Below are positions 27,524 to 36,035 of a DNA stretch of 64,000 bases, in pieces; positions within the stretch are counted from its first letter, which is position 1, and every line of letters begins with the position of its first letter. The notes under the pieces were generated by a model that was not told the origin of the DNA, searched no databases, and was given only the letters and a program-made list of their open reading frames with translations. The position numbers were made by a program, and so were the translations under genes. This DNA is from Humisphaera borealis (GTDB taxonomy: Bacteria > Planctomycetota > Phycisphaerae > Tepidisphaerales > Tepidisphaeraceae), in the NCBI RefSeq assembly GCF_015169395.1, contig NZ_CP063458.1, forward strand, positions 4,650,001 to 4,714,000, read 5' to 3'.

Positions 27524-27988
27524 ATGGGCGTGATCTACCTCATCATTCCGCTGACCGAGTCCGTCGCGGAAGACGTCCGCGGGCAAGGGCTCACCGTGCC
27601 CCACACTCGTTCCGACGCCCGCAATCCCACCTTTCGCGAAATCCGAGCGGCCTGCGAGTCGCTGCCCGGGATGCGGGGCGAGTTTCGACCATCGGCCAAC
27701 GGCAAGTGGCAGCACGCGAACCTGCGAGGGCCGGATGGCCTAGGGAACGCAGACACTTGGACCGAACTTAGCGTGTCCGGGTACGACGGCCGCGACGATC
27801 AACCGCTCTCCGTCGGGTTCAGTAAAGGCTGGCCGTCGCTCATCCTCGTCGTCGTCCGCGAACTCGCAAAGGCGTGCGGGCCGCTCGTCGTGTACCCTGA
27901 CACCGGCGACGCTCCCGTCGTGGTGGAGGCGGAATCGTCCGTAGAAGTGCTGCTCAAAAGTTGGGAGCATACGCACGGTCAGTCATGA
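27524..27988 (+). CDS. Cassette-type hypothetical protein A (154 aa)
   Basis: A soluble 154-residue protein (MGVIYLIIPLTESVAEDVRG...) with alternating strands and helices. Visible segments are WTELSVSGYDGRDDQPLSVGF and a Leu/Val-rich helix SLILVVVRELAKACGPLVVYPDTG. It has no signal peptide or familiar motif; I do not recognise it. The start lies five bases after a GTTATCC box and the stop 18 bases before the attC site, the arrangement of an integron gene cassette. It could be translated from a distant promoter; none is evident. Confidence 0.7.
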   Translation: MGVIYLIIPLTESVAEDVRGQGLTVPHTRSDARNPTFREIRAACESLPGMRGEFRPSANGKWQHANLRGPDGLGNADTWTELSVSGYDGRDDQPLSVGFSKGWPSLILVVVRELAKACGPLVVYPDTGDAPVVVEAESSVEVLLKSWEHTHGQS

Positions 27989-32440: not shown

Positions 32441-33883
32441 TCATGAGAACGCTGCGGCCAATTCTGCCTCGGCCAGGTTGAGCTGGAACGCACGCTGGCG
32501 ATAGAGCAGGTTGAACAGGTTGCCTTCGTGGGGCTGATCCCAGCTCAGTTTGAACGTTTCGATCGGCCCGATGTTGAGCCGGTCGATATGGCCGGCGGCC
32601 ATGCAGGCGCGAATGAACTTCTTGTCCTTACTGACGACCGTACCGACGAGAGTCTGACCGATCGCTTCGGGAATTTCTTCGGCCGGGCATTCGATGACGG
32701 CAGCGAACGGGAAAAGGTATTCCTTGGTCGCCAGCGGGTGGTCCTTGTCGCAGCGGATGATGGTGGGCAGCAACCAGGCGAGGCGGCCGTCTTTGACCAG
32801 GCGGGGGGTGCCGCGGATCTCCTGTGTGACGTCCTTGGCGCCTTCGATGTGCAGGCCGGCGTCGATGGCGCCGTTCATGCGTTCGGCCATCGTGGGGTTG
32901 GCGAACGCGGCGACCTCGGCCGCGGGATCATTGGCGGGCAACGCCTTGACCTTGGCGAGCTTGGCCGCGACGGCGTGGGCGATCTTGTCGGCGTTCTTGG
33001 GTGTGTAGACGGCCGACGCGTTAATGCACGAGCGACCGCCGTTGGCGGCGATGCTGGCGGCGATCAGGTCGACGTACTGTTCCCAGTTCTCGGCGGCATC
33101 GGGGCCGAGGATGACCTTGCTCCAGCCGGGGCCGTGCAGCTCGATGCGCGGGTCGTGGGCCCACATCTTGGTGGTGCCGGCGTCGCCGAAGAGCATGGCG
33201 CGGTCGACGGTGCTGAGGATGACGCCCGAGCCGCCGTGATCGGTCGGGTAGAACCCGAACGCCTCGGGCGGGAAGCCGGCGGCGATGAACGATTGGATGA
33301 TTCGCAGCGGCGACCAGGGCTCTTCTCGGCCGGGCTTCAGTACGATGGGCGTCTTCAGTGCGATCGCGGGAATCCACAGCGAGTGCACGCCGGGCGAGTT
33401 GCTCGGCAGGATCGCGCCGAAGGTCTTGGCCTCGCGGTACCAGGAGAGCATGCGGCCGTCGTCGTCGCCGAAGCCGCGGTCGAGGATCGACAGATCGAAC
33501 CCGCGCGTGAGGCCGGCGATGATCTGGTCCACCTCGTCCATGGTGCGGTGGATCTTTTTGGCATTCGTCCGGCAGTAGGTCTGCGGCATGCCGGTGGTGC
33601 TGGAGAGGGTATTGATGTACCCGTCGAAGTCCTGCTTCTGATCGCCGATGAGGACCGTGCCGGAGATGAAGATCTCGGCGGCCTTCTTGTACATCGAGAT
33701 CAGTTCTTTGACTTTGAACTGCTCGAGGACGTCGTAGTTCATCCGGTGGATGTCGCGCGAGATCAACCCGGAGTTGGCCTGCGACACCTGCGCGACCGGC
33801 TCGCCGGTGGCGTGGTGAACGATGGTGGTCTTGTCGACCGACTCGTAGGGCTTGCCGTGACGAAGGATGGGGATGTGTAGCAT
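32441..33883 (-). CDS. Aldehyde dehydrogenase-superfamily protein, possible acyl reductase
   Basis: A 480-residue protein from ATG 33883 (MLHIPILRHGKPYESVD). The catalytic Cys lies in NGGRSCINASAVY, and SNSPGVHSLWIPAIALKTPI matches the cofactor/oxyanion region of the superfamily. Divergence from ordinary aldehyde dehydrogenases and the presence of an adenylate-forming ligase next door suggest a LuxC-like or arylcarboxylate reductase component acting on an acyl group. This is an inference. The stop is 104 bases before the Fe-ADH start on the same strand. Confidence 0.8.
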   Translation of the reverse strand: MLHIPILRHGKPYESVDKTTIVHHATGEPVAQVSQANSGLISRDIHRMNYDVLEQFKVKELISMYKKAAEIFISGTVLIGDQKQDFDGYINTLSSTTGMPQTYCRTNAKKIHRTMDEVDQIIAGLTRGFDLSILDRGFGDDDGRMLSWYREAKTFGAILPSNSPGVHSLWIPAIALKTPIVLKPGREEPWSPLRIIQSFIAAGFPPEAFGFYPTDHGGSGVILSTVDRAMLFGDAGTTKMWAHDPRIELHGPGWSKVILGPDAAENWEQYVDLIAASIAANGGRSCINASAVYTPKNADKIAHAVAAKLAKVKALPANDPAAEVAAFANPTMAERMNGAIDAGLHIEGAKDVTQEIRGTPRLVKDGRLAWLLPTIIRCDKDHPLATKEYLFPFAAVIECPAEEIPEAIGQTLVGTVVSKDKKFIRACMAAGHIDRLNIGPIETFKLSWDQPHEGNLFNLLYRQRAFQLNLAEAELAAAFS

Positions 33884-33895
33884 GGTGTCTTTGTG

Positions 33896-33947
33896 GTGCA
33901 GGCTTTCCAGCCTGCACGAAGCTTGTGGTGCGGGCTTTAGCCTGCAC
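33896..33947. repeat. REP-like palindromes downstream of the RAYT gene
   Basis: GTGCAGGCT-ttcc-AGCCTGCAC (33896-33917) is a perfect hairpin. GTGGTGCGGGCTTTAGCCTG (33925-33944, extending to 33947) is the reverse complement of the unit at 33985. Confidence 0.85.
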
Positions 33948-33984
33948 ACTGAGCATTCCTCAGGAACGTATTGGGTCGAGCCTC

Positions 33985-34016
33985 ATTGTGGTGCAGGCTA
34001 AAGCCCGCACCACAAT
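33985..34016. repeat. REP-like palindrome flanking RAYT, left copy
   Basis: A 32-base palindrome with arms ATTGTGGTGCAGGCT and AGCCCGCACCACAAT. It repeats at 34656-34683 on the other side of the transposase gene, in the same orientation, and inverted at 33925-33947. Confidence 0.88.
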
Positions 34017-34034
34017 CAAGCCGCCACAGCAAAC

Positions 34035-34640
34035 TCACGCCTGCTCTAATGCCTTGCAGGACGCGGCATACCGACTGCCAAACTGCCAGTCTTCCGCTGT
34101 ATAGCATAGACCGGCCGTAACCGGATTCTCTTCGACGTAACTAGCGAATCGAGAAAGAGCCGCGACCGAACGGATCAGGTGATCGAAAGACTCGCGCTCC
34201 CAAAGTGGCCCGGTACGCCCGACTAATTGATTGATCCTTCGCGCCGTTCCACCCTTCCACGATTGCATGATCTGGTCAAAACGGTGGCTATCAAATGGAG
34301 CGAAAACGGCATGGGCATGATTCGGCATCACGCACCAGGCATACAACTCATACTTTAAGTCCTTGCCAGCGACTAAAGCGTCGGCAACTACAGAAGCGAT
34401 TTCAGGTCGTGCCAAGACACAACTTCCCAGCGTGATGGGCGGCTCGTACGCCTTGGCCAATCTAAGTTCATCGCTGTCATCCTCGCTCATGGTACGCTGA
34501 GGCGGCACAACCGCATCCAGAAGGCGAAAAGTGACGAAGTAGGTTCCCGCCGGCTTGTACAGGTGCGGCAATTCTCCACGGCTCTTCATCTTGACGAACG
34601 GCGTCCTTCGCGGGTCTACGAAATTCATAGAGTTTACCAC
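34035..34640 (-). CDS. REP-associated tyrosine transposase (RAYT, Y1/HUH type)
   Basis: A 201-residue single-strand transposase of the IS200-like RAYT branch. The HUH motif is H108-A-H110 in AWCVMPNHAHAVF, and the catalytic Tyr is probably Y168 in SYVEENPVTAGL. WKGGTARRINQL...GPLWERESFDH matches the family. RAYTs bind and process REP palindromes; here 26-32 base palindromes lie on both sides of the gene. The gene is complete and sits inside the ligase/ALDH/ADH run, splitting it. Confidence 0.9.
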   Translation of the reverse strand: MVNSMNFVDPRRTPFVKMKSRGELPHLYKPAGTYFVTFRLLDAVVPPQRTMSEDDSDELRLAKAYEPPITLGSCVLARPEIASVVADALVAGKDLKYELYAWCVMPNHAHAVFAPFDSHRFDQIMQSWKGGTARRINQLVGRTGPLWERESFDHLIRSVAALSRFASYVEENPVTAGLCYTAEDWQFGSRYAASCKALEQA

Positions 34641-34655
34641 GCGAAATTGAAGAAC

Positions 34656-34683
34656 AGGTGCAGGCTAAAGCCCGCACCACAAT
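34656..34683. repeat. REP-like palindrome flanking RAYT, right copy
   Basis: AGGTGCAGGCTAAAGCCCGC then ACCACAAT, identical to the core of 33985-34016. It lies 16 bases upstream of the RAYT start codon. Confidence 0.88.
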
Positions 34684-34697
34684 AGTGGCTTGCCGGC

Positions 34698-35810
34698 TTA
34701 GTACACGCCCTCCACCACGCTCACGCCCAGCTGCTGGAACGGCTGCACGTTACCCGTGCCGTCCCACGGATATGGCTCGCACGGCGGGCGGCGGATGGCC
34801 TGGTCACGCTCCATGAACCGCGGAATGAATGTTTCCTTGGTCAGCGTGGTCAGCATGACCCGGCCGATCTTGCCGTAGGGCACGTTCTCTTCCACGTTGT
34901 CGGGGTTGACGACTTCCGTCACCGCGCGGGGCTGCGGGGCGTAGTAGATGACTTCGTAGTTATCGACCGGGTCGAACGGCTTGTGCGTCGCCAGGCCCAT
35001 CAGCGTGTTGCCGTAGGTCGGAATGAAATCGACGCCGGGGACCAGTTCCTCGCGGCAGAACCGGTGGAACTGCGGGGTGAGTTCGGTGCCGCCACAGAAG
35101 ATGCCGGTGATCCCGTACTTCACCAGGTCGATCTTTTCGCACAGCGCTTCGAGCAGCTTCGGCGTTGCGAACATGCACTTGATGTTCGGGTTGGCGCGAA
35201 GGATCGTCAGCGACTGGTCGATCGCGTGGTTCTTGTAGAGGTTGGCTTCGTTGATTTCGCCGCGCTTGATGAGCTTGATCACCCAGCGGGGGTCGAGATC
35301 GATGCCGAACGAGATGCCGCCGCGGTGCTGGGCGAGGTGTTCGATCGCCAGGCGCAGCCGGCGGGGGCCGGAGGGTCCGAGCATGAGCCAGTCGGCGCCC
35401 TTTGGGAAGGTCTTGTCGTTGAGGGTCTTGCTGAAGTTTTCGTAGTCGATCTTCCAGTCGTCTATCTGCAGCCGGCTCTTGGGAACGCCGGTCGAGCCGC
35501 CGGTCTCGAAGATGTACATGCCACGGCCTTCAAGCCCGCGGGGCAACCAGCGGCGAACCGGGCCGCCACGAAGCCAGTCGTCCTCGAAGTGGGGGATCTT
35601 CTTCAGATCGGAATAGCTGCCGACCTCCTTGCGGACGTCGATCTTCCATTCCTTCTGCTTGTCGAGCCAGAAGGGGCAGCCGGTGTCGGGGCTGAAGTGC
35701 CACGCGATGATGTCGCGGACATGAGCGTCTAGCGCCTCGCGGGCCTGCTTGGCGCGGGCGTCGATCGACTCTGCGGGCTTGGTCGGGGCGGGTGCGGTGG
35801 CTGTTGGCAT
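34698..35810 (-). CDS. Adenylate-forming ligase (LuxE/PaaK-like)
   Basis: A 370-residue protein from ATG 35810 (MPTATAPAPTKPAESIDARA). FETGGSTGVPKSR is the Ser/Thr/Gly-rich ATP motif. FCGGTELTPQFHRF and FIPTYGNTLMGLA follow as in acyl-protein synthetase (LuxE) and phenylacetate-CoA ligase relatives, and GKIGRVMLTTLTKETFIPRF follows them. It lacks the full C-terminal domain of long ligases. It would activate a carboxylic acid as an acyl-adenylate for the reductase at 32441. A longer frame up to 35975 would add a hydrophobic repeat-derived N-terminus, which I reject. Confidence 0.8.
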   Translation of the reverse strand: MPTATAPAPTKPAESIDARAKQAREALDAHVRDIIAWHFSPDTGCPFWLDKQKEWKIDVRKEVGSYSDLKKIPHFEDDWLRGGPVRRWLPRGLEGRGMYIFETGGSTGVPKSRLQIDDWKIDYENFSKTLNDKTFPKGADWLMLGPSGPRRLRLAIEHLAQHRGGISFGIDLDPRWVIKLIKRGEINEANLYKNHAIDQSLTILRANPNIKCMFATPKLLEALCEKIDLVKYGITGIFCGGTELTPQFHRFCREELVPGVDFIPTYGNTLMGLATHKPFDPVDNYEVIYYAPQPRAVTEVVNPDNVEENVPYGKIGRVMLTTLTKETFIPRFMERDQAIRRPPCEPYPWDGTGNVQPFQQLGVSVVEGVY

Positions 35811-35890
35811 GGTGTTGAGAGGTTGAACTGGACAGGACGGTTCAGTGATCTGTAACAGACCGATGATACAACGGAACTCGAAACACAGAA

Positions 35891-35948
35891 GGGTTATCAA
35901 CCCAAGGGTTACCAACCCGAAGGCCATGAAGCCCAGGGTTACGAACCC
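35891..35948. repeat. Row of 13-base GGGTT..AACCC hairpins
   Basis: GGGTTatcAACCC (35891-35903), GGGTTaccAACCC (35906-35918), a weaker GGCcatgaaGCC unit, and GGGTTacgAACCC (35936-35948) follow each other at 15-base steps. They lie 80-140 bases upstream of the ligase start, in its 5' region. Confidence 0.7.
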
Positions 35949-36035
35949 AACTTGGCGGTCGGACCGCAGGTTCACCTGGCGCTTAGCATAGCGTGGCGGC
36001 CTGTTGTTGGTTCGGGTTTCACGACTTTCGGCGCA

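Follow-up and report, generated by a model that had tools for sequence, protein, structure and literature searches.

In Humisphaera borealis, an open reading frame for a Y1 transposase has a luxE-like gene on one side and a luxC-like gene on the other, and is bordered by palindromes that recur elsewhere in the genome. The question raised by this locus is whether the transposase mobilises these palindromes or simply lies among them. The window, that is, the whole 64,000-nucleotide stretch of DNA that was analysed (C1:4650001-4714000), belongs to a 7.19-Mb genome in one contig. The preferred reading, held at a probability of roughly 85%, takes the locus for a REP-RAYT unit (REPtron), placed between luxE and luxC, whose RAYT copies its REPs and which is a free-standing member of a clade with in-frame modules. 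Its features are the following:

34698..35975, minus strand: LuxE-like acyl-protein synthetase, upstream neighbour, assigned from sequence
34658..34682, minus strand: REP 5' of the RAYT, TTGTG-GTGCGGGCTTTAGCCTGCAC, in the gene's orientation
34035..34640, minus strand: RAYT, a TnpAREP-like Y1/HUH transposase, 201-aa ORF with H108/H110/Y168
33985..34016, minus strand: REP 3' of the RAYT, full palindrome ATTGTGGTGCGGGCTTTAGCCTGCACCACAAT, fold z -6.3
33923..33947, plus strand: REP, exact inverted copy TTGTGGTGCGGGCTTTAGCCTGCAC, 25 nt, 100%
33891..33917, plus strand: REP variant with the 4-nt loop TTCC, TTGTGGTGCAGGCTTTCCAGCCTGCAC
32441..33883, minus strand: LuxC-like acyl-CoA reductase, downstream neighbour, assigned from sequence

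The RAYT gene and its locus

The first-pass annotation had proposed a complete Y1 transposase, and the protein bears this out. H108, H110 and Y168 are invariant in alignment A2, so that the HUH motif and the single catalytic tyrosine are both present. In Pfam, PF01797 matches the ORF with 28.9 bits (cut-off 23), and the top-scoring NCBIfam model is NF047646 (REP_Tyr_transpos), with 77.9 bits against a cut-off of 80. The AlphaFold2 model (pLDDT 85) finds as its top PDB chain 4ER8, of the TnpAREP fold (E 9.7e-10), with IS608 and ISDra2 ranked lower, and TnpAREP is also matched by sequence at 1.1e-6. The 4ER8 chain is E. coli TnpAREP complexed with a REP hairpin. About a dozen Y1 proteins are found in the genome, and the RAYT of the window alone has REPs of this family alongside.

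Along the gene strand the order is luxE, a REP (34682-34658), the RAYT, the full REP (34016-33985), two REPs facing the opposite way (33947-33923 and 33917-33891) and luxC. The bordering palindromes, earlier described as near-identical, agree in every base over 27 nt (33990-34016 against 34657-34683, 100% identity); the gene-upstream REP has a single tagged arm, and the gene-downstream REP is the complete ATTGTGGTGC...GCACCACAAT palindrome. The inverted copy and the variant hairpin of the same annotation were also recovered, and the TTCC-loop form of TTGTGGTGCAGGCTTTCCAGCCTGCAC is common to other genomic copies and to the REPs of relatives. Folded as single-stranded DNA, three of the four hairpins of the locus do much better than shuffled sequences (z -3.5, -6.3 and -3.5), the copy at 33923 being weaker (z -2.0). 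The tagged strand of the REP reads TTGTGG-TGCGGGCTTTAGCCTGCAC.

Both neighbouring genes lie on the strand of the RAYT. A RAYT at the luxE-luxC junction is absent from all four relatives that keep both genes: in G045 and G033 these are directly adjacent (0-22 nt), and in G016 and G004 the junction holds Uma2/DUF820-like ORFs, a family named by sequence. The REP-RAYT unit was therefore gained in this lineage, and an ancestral position of the RAYT between luxE and luxC was rejected on account of these short or unrelated junctions. A reading of the RAYT in frame with luxE or luxC was likewise rejected, because its ORF has its own stop codons.

Dispersal of the REP family

Copies were counted by pattern searches and by reading stretches with their flanks, on both strands and with the TTCC loop form included. 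The pattern GTGCAGGCTNNAGCCNGCAC occurs at 31 places with up to two mismatches, against 2-3 for the reversed pattern, and a variable-loop pattern occurs without mismatch at 22 places, against none for its reverse. In total, the family has 36 copies genome-wide, so it is not confined to the locus. A guide-like tetranucleotide, which the first-pass annotation had suggested looking for, is there in every copy: the 5'-foot tag GTG+G (GTGG) is present in 36/36, and in 34 of them it is extended to TTGTGG. Convergent (head-to-head) pairs, as in REPINs or BIMEs, take up 26 of the 36 copies, with 26-33 bp from start to start. Tag and hairpin alone are no evidence, because GTRG-tagged hairpins in the whole window (17) are no more numerous than in shuffled sequence (15-21); the case rests on the repeated sequence. 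Among 60 relatives, the exact REP family is found in the congener G001 only and is absent from the other 59. G001, a 65%-complete MAG and the sole congener compared, carries these REPs though it gave no match to an orthologue of the RAYT.

The window holds a second family of tagged hairpins, GTGGCATGGGCAAG...CTTGCCCGTG, at 249, 299, 26867 and 37790, with no tie to the RAYT; the first-pass annotation had noted that the other repeat families differ in sequence. At seven loci (L016, L018, L026, L030, L019, L268 and L249 of G001) other REPs of the RAYT's family are enclosed by degenerate inverted repeats of greater length (GACGGTGTAGCGGG ... CCGCTACACCGACC), which may form a further nested element.

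The pairing of this REP with this RAYT can be followed beyond the genome. When 98 RAYT domains are placed in a tree, the protein of the window falls in a six-member set (SH-aLRT 99) that includes proteins of Armatimonadetes, Phycisphaerales and Pirellulales MAGs, of another planctomycete and of G005. The TTGTGGTGCRGGC class of REP borders five of these six RAYTs, spanning Planctomycetota and Armatimonadetes: the RAYT of the window, L087, L088, L065 and L085 are flanked by TTGTGGTGCAGGCTTCCAGCCTGC, by TTGTGGTGYAGGCGTCCCGCCTGC or by the form found in the window. L086, the sixth, is bordered by the related TTGTGGTGCAGACTTTCCAGTCTGCA. RAYTs of other clades have different bordering hairpins, for example GTGGCACGGGCGTCCCGCCCGTG; thus REP class and RAYT clade go together. 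Because the same palindrome class accompanies five of the six nearest kin, the RAYT and the REP of the window are probably a cognate pair. One clade-mate (L088, 5941-6549) has a His at the position of the catalytic Tyr, amid the same REP class, and is likely a dead copy.

By analogy with E. coli TnpAREP, the RAYT would recognise on single-stranded DNA the hairpin GTGC[GA]GGCT-loop-AGCCTGCAC only if GTGG stands at its 5' foot. It would then cut beside the hairpin by means of Y168 and carry out strand transfer, and pairs of REPs (REPINs) would in this way be copied to new sites. For a GTGG guide, analogy with the Marinomonas enzyme (PMC8266576) predicts a cut at CC or CA.

A second disperser has to be reckoned with. 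Eight of the 36 copies (four REPINs) are the cargo of separate, near-identical MITEs of about 120 bp:

MITE loci: C1:169.8k, 4232.4k, 4598.8k and 4762.2k (L012, L020, L021 and L025)

These MITEs have inverted ends of 19 bp, CAGGGCAATCGCATGTGCC, and lie between target duplications, read from the flanks and about 10 bp long, of which CGGTGTCATG and CGCCGACCGC are exact and two others agree at 8-9 of 10 positions. The MITE-borne copies spread via a different transposase. The RAYT of the window is therefore not the sole disperser, and copy number overstates its activity and is alone no proof of it. The first-pass proposal of the RAYT as a candidate source of repeats is supported by the 36 dispersed copies and the clade match, with these eight as a qualification.

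It could be argued from the MITEs that all the palindromes spread within such unrelated elements, and that the RAYT landed among REPs, or REPs beside the RAYT, without its being their mobiliser; about six further REP loci also have extended flanks in common outside the REPIN. This is unlikely, given that all four copies of this REP in the window are at the RAYT locus, within 800 bp of the gene, where about 0.004 would be expected from 36 copies in 7.19 Mb. Clade-mates elsewhere being bordered by the same REP class, and the guide tag being kept in every copy, also speak against it. Also to be weighed is an ordinary IS200-like insertion sequence, whose end hairpins resemble REPs and whose decayed ends, or MITEs, would be the dispersed palindromes. 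It accounts for the Y1_Tnp match in Pfam and for hairpins on both sides of the gene, but is very improbable. No second close copy of the RAYT was found in its own genome, which makes it a single-copy gene, unlike a multiplied insertion sequence; the next match there is 43% identical and lies within DinG, and the near-identical complete copies expected of IS200/IS605 were not found in this genome. The same REP stands on both flanks, and convergent pairs of it also occur far from any RAYT. The best NCBIfam model and the structure match, in which TnpAREP with its REP hairpin outranks IS608 and ISDra2, favour a REP-RAYT unit as well.

In-frame relatives within host proteins

Away from its own locus, the RAYT has its best matches mostly in open frames of 846-1366 aa. 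Pfam scans and direct reading identified in-frame RAYT domains in the DinG helicase, in AlaRS, ValRS, LeuRS and PurH, in a FabZ-like dehydratase and, at the C-terminus, in ThiE. More hosts are acetyl-CoA-synthetase-like, MoeA, UDG, radical-SAM and FMN-oxidoreductase proteins and several methylase/restriction proteins. In a phylum search, 32 of 141 matches lay within an identified host protein, which is not an unbiased rate because the query included embedded seeds. The catalytic H, H and Y are intact in all 61 embedded copies examined, in searches that favour conserved copies. REP-like hairpins, one orientation 5' and the inverse 3', stand on both sides of 27 of the 38 embedded RAYTs examined, and their translations are strings such as TGFQPV, TGVPPV and HGRDAHAT. 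On a tree of 98 proteins, 17 changes are needed to explain which RAYTs are free and which embedded, and 34 to explain the host labels, so host genes were entered many times. No intein or Hint domain was found by Pfam in the 53 long ORFs scanned. ThiE-RAYT fusions are found in four genomes (L084, L081-L083), where the C-terminal RAYT is bordered by hairpins of the GGACAGACATTCCTGTCTGTCC type, translated as GQTFLSA.

The insertion points lie between residues 204 and 210 of Thermus ValRS, in the loop after the TSATL motif of DinG, and in the linker joining the two domains of PurH. Filled and empty sites can be compared for two hosts. Within the bacterial family to which the genome of the window belongs, seven DinGs carry a RAYT and 15 do not, and two of the 15 (G002 and G023) have a translated REP pair in the same loop; at least four gains or losses are needed on the tree of the host part. 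The FabZ-like protein has an empty loop in G316 and G277, and a RAYT with both host halves in nine relatives; in a tenth carrier the sequence after the RAYT is masked by Ns. In FabZ-RAYT the RAYT part has a dN/dS of about 0.18, and FabZ one of 0.08-0.11; these values suggest constraint but are only indicative, as dS is near saturation. An AlphaFold model of this fusion gives a confident RAYT domain, the FabZ halves being unusable because the alignment is too shallow. Between L198 and L203 the FabZ-like halves are 96% identical and the inserted RAYTs only 70%, which suggests RAYT replacement or conversion of the host gene. A claim of essentiality for the FabZ-like host was given up, since another FabZ-like gene, free of a RAYT, is present in the carrier genomes that were checked.

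The AlaRS and ValRS carriers that were checked, draft genomes 88-96% complete, mostly have these proteins as sole copies. In drafts of this completeness, a single AlaRS was counted in G105 and in G125, and a single ValRS C-domain in each of G026, G354 and G370, always in the RAYT-bearing frame; in G051 a second short piece adjoins. The only AlaRS of G000 (L247, 1145-aa frame) is interrupted at three points by in-frame stretches of about 45-78 aa, possibly REP-derived, which leave four family-matching pieces.

Such fusions might be mimicked by assembly chimeras, or by open frames that run too long in high-GC MAGs. The carriers are mostly MAGs, and in one of them (G174 C30, L196) the RAYT-bearing AlaRS is split by a frame change near 27574, be it real or an assembly error. 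This explanation is scarcely credible for the set, as the Pfam domains of the host are read in a single frame before and after the insert in many unrelated genomes, the identical insertion site recurs across genera, and PDB homologues are without just the insert. Moreover, the single-contig genome of the window has two in-frame RAYTs itself (DinG and ThiE), and the carriers include a 4-contig genome (G219, L213) and isolate records (L127 and L147).

In the wider clade, REP-RAYT-REP modules have repeatedly entered host genes in frame. As the REPs can usually be read through with no stop codon, the RAYT would be built into the host protein as a domain, sharing its transcription and translation, and may still be active. 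On balance, these modules may well be mobile domain-insertion elements that enter loops of host proteins, sole AlaRS and ValRS included, and keep an active transposase as a domain that is shielded from loss, comparable to inteins but without splicing. The RAYT of the window would be a free-standing, operon-embedded member of their clade.

Known systems and significance

Rickettsia palindromic elements (RPE) are not known to encode a transposase, which is a difference from the clade of the window. Inteins and nested homing endonucleases are cases of a mobile endonuclease kept in frame in conserved, often essential proteins. They differ in that no splicing domain is seen here, and the insert is apparently retained as a domain between REP-encoded linkers.

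Among the closest known systems is that of E. coli TnpAREP and its REPtron (4ER8; PMC8266576), alike in the HUH motif with a single Tyr, the hairpin REP with a 5'-foot tetranucleotide, the convergent pairs and the single-copy gene. The tag is GTAG there and GTGG here, both within the GT[AG]G described at the 5' foot of REPs that flank RAYTs (PMC6006769). The E. coli REP is bulged, whereas the stem of the REP of the window is near-perfect, with one G.T wobble; the RAYT also has an extra N-terminal part of about 90 aa, and its relatives are embedded in host genes. The REPs of Opitutus terrae and other species share the GTGG tag and are translated in frame in ORFs, including DNA-repair genes and, in some species, tRNA-synthetase genes (PMC3733652). 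The inserts of Di Nocera et al. are REPs only (20-82 aa), apparently with no RAYTs described, whereas here the transposase gene is inserted with its REPs; the RPE treated there are alike as palindromic selfish DNA that conserved genes carry in frame. 'Unexpectedly long proteins' of TnpAY1 were discarded by Quentin et al. (PMC6006769) as fusions or annotation errors; these are alike in that Y1 is fused to other sequence, and may belong to this clade. In the model of PMC8049555, a REPIN landing in a gene destroys that gene. In-frame REPs are thus already known, and in-frame RAYTs are what appears to be new here, no report of them having been found in a literature search that covered few of the subscription journals.

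It has been a question in the field how RAYTs and REPs persist for so long without obvious horizontal transfer. That conserved genes have tolerated an in-frame transposase again and again suggests another route to persistence, and the embedded RAYTs suggest a natural source of enzyme domain insertions. The locus of the window is small and open to testing, with one probable cognate pair and the same GTGG guide throughout.
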